This document shows, one piece after another, positions 14,351-15,312 of a stretch of DNA of 33,468 nucleotides. A program made the position numbers and the translations under genes. Source of the stretch: Dehalococcoidia bacterium. GTDB taxonomy: Bacteria; Chloroflexota; Dehalococcoidia; GIF9; AB-539-J10. Where the stretch lies: positions 1 to 33,468 of the forward strand of contig PWRA01000137.1 of NCBI GenBank assembly GCA_003556385.1, written 5' to 3'. Under the pieces are notes generated by a model that worked only from the letters and a program-made list of their open reading frames with translations, ran no database searches and was not told where the DNA came from. The first letter of the stretch is position 1. Every line of letters begins with the position of its first letter.

Positions 14351-14379
14351 ATGATATCCCGCTTTGGGTCTACTGTCAA
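14351..14379 (-). promoter_or_regulatory. strong sigma70-type promoter for carbamate kinase
   Basis: Perfect TTGACA (14379-14374), 17-bp spacer, TATCAT (14356-14351) on the minus strand, with an expected start near 14344. Confidence 0.62.
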
Positions 14380-14536: not shown

Positions 14537-14980
14537 CTACTCCGTGAAGACCCTGACCACCTCTTGCTTGCTCGCGACGTCCACCTCTAGGTCGCTCAAG
14601 GCGCCTATGAGTTCGTCCAGGCCGTCCGGGTTGAGATTACTGATATCGAGTCCTATGCCTTTGTTGCGCAGAGCCTCGCCGACTTTGTGGCCGACGCCGG
14701 ACGGCAGCACTGAAGCGAACTTGATGCCGGAACGTATCAGTGCCACCGGCACACGCACGTTGACGCGCTCCGCATCCTCGTCCTGCTCGTGTGCGGGTCC
14801 GGGCTGGGCGGTCACACGCAGGTATTTCGGTTTGGCCCGTGCCGTCCTTGCTCCGTCTCCCGCGGTGGTGTCGTCCGTGCCTGTTTCGGGTTCCGCTGCA
14901 CCCAGCAGGCGATAGGCTTCCTCGACGCTTATCCTCTCCTCCACCAGCATCTCCAGGATCTTCTTTCGATTTGCAGCCAT
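14537..14980 (-). CDS. SHOCT-like domain protein, function unknown
   Basis: 147 residues. The first 25 residues (RKKILEMLVEERISVEEAYRLLGA) are a SHOCT-like/YvlB-type short helical domain found in many Gram-positive and Chloroflexota regulatory or envelope-stress proteins. A polar, Asp/Glu-rich linker (about 28-70) follows. The second part, VNVRVPVALIRSGIKFASVLP (about 73-93) and the tail with LDISNLNPDGLDELIGAL, resembles the C-terminal module often seen behind this domain. There is no signal peptide or membrane helix. AAAGGAGG (14989-14996) just before the ATG overlaps the stop of the preceding small gene, so the two are translated from one transcript. The role cannot be read from sequence. 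Confidence 0.8.
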   Translation of the reverse strand: MAANRKKILEMLVEERISVEEAYRLLGAAEPETGTDDTTAGDGARTARAKPKYLRVTAQPGPAHEQDEDAERVNVRVPVALIRSGIKFASVLPSGVGHKVGEALRNKGIGLDISNLNPDGLDELIGALSDLEVDVASKQEVVRVFTE

Positions 14981-14995
14981 CTTGTTTTCCTCCTT

Positions 14996-15190
14996 TCAAC
15001 TCATGGACCCGAGTGTTACATATCCGTTGCCCGTCAGGGCATACCGCACTCCCGGTTGCGCCGGCTGGGCCGTGTACCATGATAGAGGCCCTGCCGGAGC
15101 GCCACCTTCGTTGTGCCCATTCGCCCGGCGGGAAGGGCCCATCTCCCTGGTGGCAGCCCTGTTGACCATTTTCTTCCGATGCTCAGCCAT
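14996..15190 (-). CDS. 64-residue protein, function unknown
   Basis: A short frame that I did not recognise. Support for it being real: AAGGAGG (15196-15202) lies 5 bases before the ATG at 15190; a perfect consensus promoter lies about 45 bases further upstream; and the stop codon abuts the Shine-Dalgarno of the SHOCT-like gene (15 bases between frames), as in a coupled operon. The protein starts basic (AEHRKKMVNRAATREM), has a Gly/Ala/Pro-rich middle and ends in SWYTAQPAQPGVRYALTGNG, with no membrane helix and no cysteine. It may be a small partner of the SHOCT-like protein, or a leader peptide. An upstream in-frame ATG at 15262 would lie within the promoter and is rejected. Confidence 0.6.
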   Translation of the reverse strand: MAEHRKKMVNRAATREMGPSRRANGHNEGGAPAGPLSWYTAQPAQPGVRYALTGNGYVTLGSMS

Positions 15191-15241
15191 TTGTCCCTCC
15201 TTCTTTAGATAAATCAAGATGTAGATTAAGTATTTCCACCC

Positions 15242-15270
15242 ATTATAAGTCCCATGTTTCACTTTGTCAA
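15242..15270 (-). promoter_or_regulatory. perfect sigma70/sigmaA consensus promoter
   Basis: On the minus strand, TTGACA (15270-15265), exactly 17 bp, and TATAAT (15247-15242). The upstream DNA (15271-15300) is AT-rich like an UP element. The expected start near 15235 gives a leader of about 45 bases to the 64-residue gene. Confidence 0.85.
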
Positions 15271-15291
15271 ACTATTACAGGAATATTTTCA

Positions 15292-15312
15292 AGAAATGCT
15301 GAAGAGAAATGC
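15292..15312 (-). repeat. 8-bp direct repeat upstream of the consensus promoter
   Basis: GCATTTCT occurs twice (15312-15305 and 15299-15292), 13 bases apart start to start, about 57-77 bases before the predicted transcription start. It is a possible regulator site. Confidence 0.35.

Follow-up and report, generated by a model that had tools for sequence, protein, structure and literature searches.

Organization of the unit and its promoter

On the minus strand of the window (the whole analysed stretch of 33,468 nucleotides), a perfect sigma-70-type promoter is followed by a gene for a 64-aa protein and, directly behind it, by a gene for a 147-aa SHOCT-like protein, designated here SHOCT-A (Table 1). 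Direct reading of the sequence places the -35 hexamer TTGACA at 15270..15265 and, after a 17-bp spacer, the -10 hexamer TATAAT at 15247..15242, whereas the Shine-Dalgarno sequence AAGGAGG (15202..15196) is followed by GACAA and the ATG of the small gene at 15190. The TGA codon that closes the 64-codon frame (14998..14996) shares its last base with the first A of AAAGGAGG, which is located 8 bases before the ATG of SHOCT-A (14980). The first-pass annotation had reported the promoter with its exact 17-bp spacing, the Shine-Dalgarno sequence 5 bases from the ATG of the 64-residue frame, and a stop codon touching the Shine-Dalgarno sequence of the next gene; all three were recovered by direct reading, the promoter to the base, and the transcription start predicted here (about 15235) agrees with the one given earlier. 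The SHOCT-like identity proposed for the downstream gene stands as well, since its match to SHOCT-like_DUF2089-C (PF22746; E-value, 6.4 × 10−7; 29.2 bits) exceeds the curated cut-off of 27 bits.

Table 1. Features of the two-gene unit, with positions given along the window.
Feature	Position	Strand	Basis or remark
A/T tract TTTCTTGAAAATATT	15282..15296	-	Precedes the -35 box; 7 of 8 loci have a TTTTCTTAAAAATA-like tract (alignment)
Perfect sigma-70-type promoter, TTGACA-17-TATAAT	15242..15270	-	Consensus scan, 12/12; same hexamers and spacing in 8 of 8 family loci
Promoter-context signature common to DUF2089-operon promoters	15220..15264 (spacer 15264..15248 and 15241..15220)	-	PWM; possible operator
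Shine-Dalgarno sequence AAGGAGG of the small gene	15196..15202	-	Direct reading
Gene for the 64-aa small protein	14996..15190	-	13-copy family; pairwise dN/dS 0.15–0.57 where computable; no database family
Codons 1–18, homologous to the SHOCT-like N-terminus (apparent partial duplication)	15137..15190	-	hhalign and nucleotide identity
Conserved C-terminal core LSWYTAQPAQPGVRYALTGNGYVTL	15011..15085	-	Conservation, codon-position divergence, AlphaFold2 hairpin
Shine-Dalgarno sequence AAAGGAGG of SHOCT-A	14989..14996	-	Its first base is also the last of the small-gene TGA
SHOCT-A, SHOCT-like gene (147 aa)	14537..14980	-	PF22746; paralogous to the SHOCT gene in the DUF2089 operon

In the genome of the window (1.66 Mb, 171 contigs), the exact sequence TTGACA-17-TATAAT occurs eight times, compared to a single occurrence of the reversed control, which is more than expected by chance. 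Across the 20 genomes of the genus, 3–16 perfect promoters per genome were found, and matches to the reversed control were absent outside G000. Such promoters, rare in these genomes, mark a few specific genes: two of the eight belong to the small-protein family, the second of them driving a paralogous copy of the unit, one lies ahead of 23S rRNA, and the others precede genes for a DnaJ-type co-chaperone, MgtE-like and CTP-synthase-like proteins and less clear products (names read from translations). All eight readable promoters of the small-protein family are perfect, although their spacers and flanks diverge. The A/T tract upstream of the -35 box, more diverged in G002:C95, resembles a distal UP element and may act as one. 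Judging from its promoter, the unit is probably strongly transcribed, given that another perfect promoter of the genome precedes 23S rRNA.

Two further observations concern promoters of this kind. A second, near-perfect one (TTGACA-17-TATCAT, 11/12; 14351..14379, minus strand) is found between SHOCT-A and a carbamate kinase-like gene (start 14259). In at least six genomes of the genus, perfect consensus promoters also form divergent pairs about 15–40 bases apart (G012:C24:1320-1392, G018:C78:660-732, G006:C89:1478-1550, G001:C189:1072-1144, G011:C213:2941-3025, and G015:C42:18535-18621), some of which have GTTAAC-like spacer bases in common.

The small-protein family

Searches of Pfam, NCBIfam, PHROGs, PADLOC and PDB gave no match to the small protein apart from a chance-level one in PHROGs (E-value, 0.36); neither phage families and defence models nor the searched viral contigs yielded a match to the unit, and nothing useful was found in the literature on small proteins and promoters in Dehalococcoidia. 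Searches with the 64-aa query revealed two further copies in the genome of the window, arranged in tandem on contig C150 (75% and 68% identity), and homologues in five further species of the genus. In total, the family comprises 13 copies, present singly or as tandem pairs at each locus, and 12 of these were aligned, the thirteenth gene being cut by a contig end. The listed copies have a near-perfect Shine-Dalgarno sequence (6–7 of 7 bases), and the proteins are mostly basic (pI > 9 in 11 of 12). All comparisons were made on MAG-quality contigs and with small alignments.

The 64-aa frame represents a genuine protein family under purifying selection on its C-terminal core, the consensus of which is LSWYxAQPAxxGxxYALTxNGYVxL. 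Searching relatives for the small frame ahead of SHOCT-like genes, together with substitution rates, showed it to be conserved with dN/dS below 1. Because distant pairs are saturated, the closer pairs count most; the ratio is 0.26–0.44 in the closest pairs, including 0.38–0.39 between the window and C150 copies and 0.26 between two G012 copies. The divergence at codon positions 1, 2 and 3 is 0.27, 0.27 and 0.54 in the core, and 0.44, 0.42 and 0.50 in the nearly unconstrained N-terminal half. Taken together, the codon-position divergence and the dN/dS values demonstrate that selection acts on the protein, and mainly on the core. AlphaFold2 predicted a weak N-terminal helix and a C-terminal beta hairpin (residues 49–61), with confidence in the hairpin only (pLDDT 84 for residues 51–60; mean pLDDT of the whole model, 59.6), and it is this hairpin core that presumably constitutes the working part of the protein.

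In a profile comparison, residues 1–18 matched the N-terminus of the SHOCT-like proteins (hhalign E-value, 1.5 × 10−5; probability, 79.7%), and nucleotides +4 to +27 of the small gene and the SHOCT gene are 62–71% identical in seven of nine pairs, against a background of about 27%. Thus, the first ~18 codons and the ribosome-binding site of the small gene appear to have been borrowed from the 5′ end of the SHOCT gene, which would make this family a case of gene birth by use of the start region of a downstream neighbour. A candidate source of the core, the C-terminal strand of the operon membrane protein described below, looked alike by eye and was rejected at an hhalign probability of 0.1%.

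A partial duplication of this kind might also have left a functionless, decaying remnant that is simply carried along by the promoter. The SHOCT-derived start and the weak constraint on the N-terminal half are what such a remnant would show, but the copies are intact, with gaps of whole codons, positions 1 and 2 of the core codons are under constraint, dN/dS does not exceed 0.44 in the closest pairs, and no locus was seen that has lost the small frame while keeping SHOCT-A. This explanation is therefore disfavoured and regarded as very unlikely.

The small protein was found in six of the 20 genomes of the genus, three of these being the Dehalococcoidia MAGs JAUWQY010000036, PULQ01000016 and PWZA01000157, and in no other of the 84 genomes of the order. 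Sampling at class level (393 genomes) and phylum level (301 genomes) gave just four weak matches outside the genus: those in G354 and G088 (class) look like chance when the stretches are read, and those in G550 and G452 (phylum) are weak. So far, the known range of the small protein is thus confined to a single Dehalococcoidia genus, and to some of its species. The SHOCT-A family is present in exactly the same six genomes; as the two genes adjoin, this co-occurrence reflects linkage and is not independent evidence. Wherever the sequence upstream of a SHOCT-A gene is readable, the small frame is there, and a broken frame next to a retained SHOCT-A gene was looked for and not found. Together with the selection on the protein and the perfect promoters at all eight readable loci, this supports the two-gene unit anticipated in the first-pass annotation. 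SHOCT paralogues that are not preceded by the small frame do exist, in another operon, behind genes for a DUF2089 protein and a membrane protein.

Promoter context and the DUF2089 operon

The unit was found in two genomic settings. At locus 1, that of the window, it lies between a trehalose-phosphate-synthase-like gene and the carbamate kinase-like gene, and G012 has matching neighbours, distributed over two contigs (C165 and C120), as does G009 in part. At locus 2 (e.g., G000:C150, G012:C128, and G018:C135), SHOCT-A, preceded by one or two small genes, is followed by genes for a DUF2089 protein, a membrane protein of ~105 aa and a second SHOCT-like protein (SHOCT-B), and, in some genomes, by TldD/TldE-like genes next after SHOCT-B. 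The DUF2089 protein matches PF09862 (E-value, 2.4 × 10−19) and has a weak SHOCT-like tail. SHOCT-A and SHOCT-B are paralogous and not cleanly separated in the SHOCT tree. The unit of the window resembles the DUF2089 (HTH)–membrane protein–SHOCT-like operon in that PF22746 is common to both and the two adjoin at locus 2 of relatives, and differs from it in that the window locus has no adjacent DUF2089 or membrane protein gene and has the genus-specific small protein instead. In G012, the first small genes of locus 2 (G012:C128:8978-9148) and locus 1 (G012:C165:207-377) share 93% protein identity and the SHOCT genes linked to them are nearly identical, which suggests recent copying between the two loci.

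The likeness extends to the sequence around the promoter. On a PWM built solely from five DUF2089-operon promoters, with the hexamers excluded, the window promoter scored 11.5 (shuffle mean, -23.8; sd, 8.2), a value reached by none of 5000 shuffles. All eight family promoters stood far above their composition shuffles, of which no more than 1 in 5000 reached the observed score; by contrast, the six remaining perfect promoters of this genome scored at background level. A 45-base pattern of the signature, scanned with up to three mismatches in the 20 genomes of the genus, was found at seven places, with no control matches; four of these places are promoters of small genes, two are DUF2089 promoters, and the last precedes a Toastrack gene. 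The window promoter itself is more diverged and outside the reach of this pattern, so that its signature is based on the PWM. The Toastrack (DUF4097) gene (PF13349; E-value, 1.6 × 10−18) is preceded by the signature at G014:C109:13085-13129 (L105) and followed by a TldD-like gene; it is an example from one genome, and a search of the remaining 19 genomes of the genus gave no orthologue. The promoter scores against shuffles and the six control promoters, together with the genus-wide scan, indicate that the unit has its promoter context in common with the DUF2089 system. This likeness could stem in part from common descent of a duplicated promoter and not from a working operator; common descent does not easily explain the signature at the Toastrack gene.

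Possible roles of the unit

The first-pass annotation had ranked the unit as the least explained of the window and of unknown function. This now appears too strong, because the promoter signature, the paralogy and the neighbours tie it to the DUF2089, SHOCT-like and Toastrack genes, a published predicted membrane-stress module. According to a comparative study of PSP systems, DUF2089 proteins (zinc ribbon, HTH, SHOCT-like) found with Toastrack genes are likely membrane-stress systems, and SHOCT-like domains are predicted to tether proteins to the inner side of the membrane (PMC11237479), although the function of the SHOCT domain is still unsettled (PMC3581485). Since such contexts are likely membrane-stress systems, the unit is most plausibly a lineage-specific addition, or satellite, to the DUF2089/SHOCT/Toastrack envelope-stress regulon of one Dehalococcoidia genus, with the small protein as an accessory, a reading that we hold to be somewhat probable. 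The presumably very strong sigma-A-type promoter, in a context common to the DUF2089-operon promoter, would give one mRNA for the 64-aa protein and the duplicated SHOCT-like protein, and ribosomes would move straight on from the first gene to the second. The small gene would have arisen from a copy of the SHOCT ribosome-binding site and first ~18 codons, fused to a new C-terminal part that is now the conserved one. When the regulon is switched on, possibly by the DUF2089 HTH protein, both proteins would be made in quantity, and the abundant small protein may then act through its hairpin core on SHOCT-like assemblies at the inner side of the membrane, as a partner that assists or tunes them. 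With these results, an undescribed small-protein family gains a concrete setting, and the regulon, for which we know of no regulator or signal, a testable promoter signature.

The main rival of the satellite reading, though an unlikely one, is that the small frame is mainly a leader, the heavy translation of which feeds ribosomes to the SHOCT start, or the conserved C-terminus of which controls the SHOCT gene by ribosome stalling. Such a role would suit the small-gene stop that runs into the SHOCT Shine-Dalgarno sequence, the conserved core that ends 0–6 residues ahead of the stop, where an arrest sequence would lie, and the next ribosome-binding site close behind each tandem copy. However, predicted RNA structure around the SHOCT start and in the leader does not exceed that of shuffles and the SHOCT Shine-Dalgarno sequence is not consistently paired, which gives no indication of a masked site that could be opened; moreover, a leader would not need two tandem copies, and a conserved core of ~25 residues with a predicted hairpin exceeds the needs of translational coupling.

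It is also conceivable, but decidedly doubtful, that the small protein mimics half of a SHOCT-like domain, its N-terminal helix capping or competing in SHOCT-like contacts, including those of the DUF2089 tail, while the hairpin binds a second target; this would amount to product-level feedback on an envelope-stress switch with an rRNA-grade promoter. Export of the small protein as a peptide signal or bacteriocin-like product, with the SHOCT-like protein as immunity or stress partner, is scarcely probable. The small size, mostly basic character, tandem copies and strong promoter would fit it, but neither a signal sequence nor a cysteine-rich core or hydrophobic helix is obvious in the protein, it has no family matches, no obvious export or modification genes lie nearby, and its conserved part is the C-terminus, opposite to usual RiPP precursors.

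As regards the satellite reading, related architectures are known elsewhere. LiaX/YvlB of Firmicutes combine a SHOCT-like domain with a Toastrack domain, and SHOCT-A resembles them as a protein with an N-terminal SHOCT-like domain and a predicted tie to envelope stress; this 147-aa protein differs in having no Toastrack (DUF4097) domain, PF22746 being its only Pfam match. No LiaFSR-like genes were seen near the window unit, and we know of no counterpart of the small protein in LiaX/YvlB systems. Only one match, at chance level, was obtained for the SHOCT-like protein among solved structures, and its model is poor, with helices predicted at residues 2–13 and 19–27. This weak model is in line with the short bi-helical domain of SHOCT domain proteins (PMC3581485), the difference being that the domain is N-terminal in the window protein. 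The DUF2089–membrane protein–SHOCT gene order is also found, without the small gene, in other families of the class. In one of these (L081), a 57-aa frame, by eye unrelated to the small-protein core and largely made up of a SHOCT-like segment, is located between the membrane protein gene and the SHOCT gene, ~174 bases before the latter.
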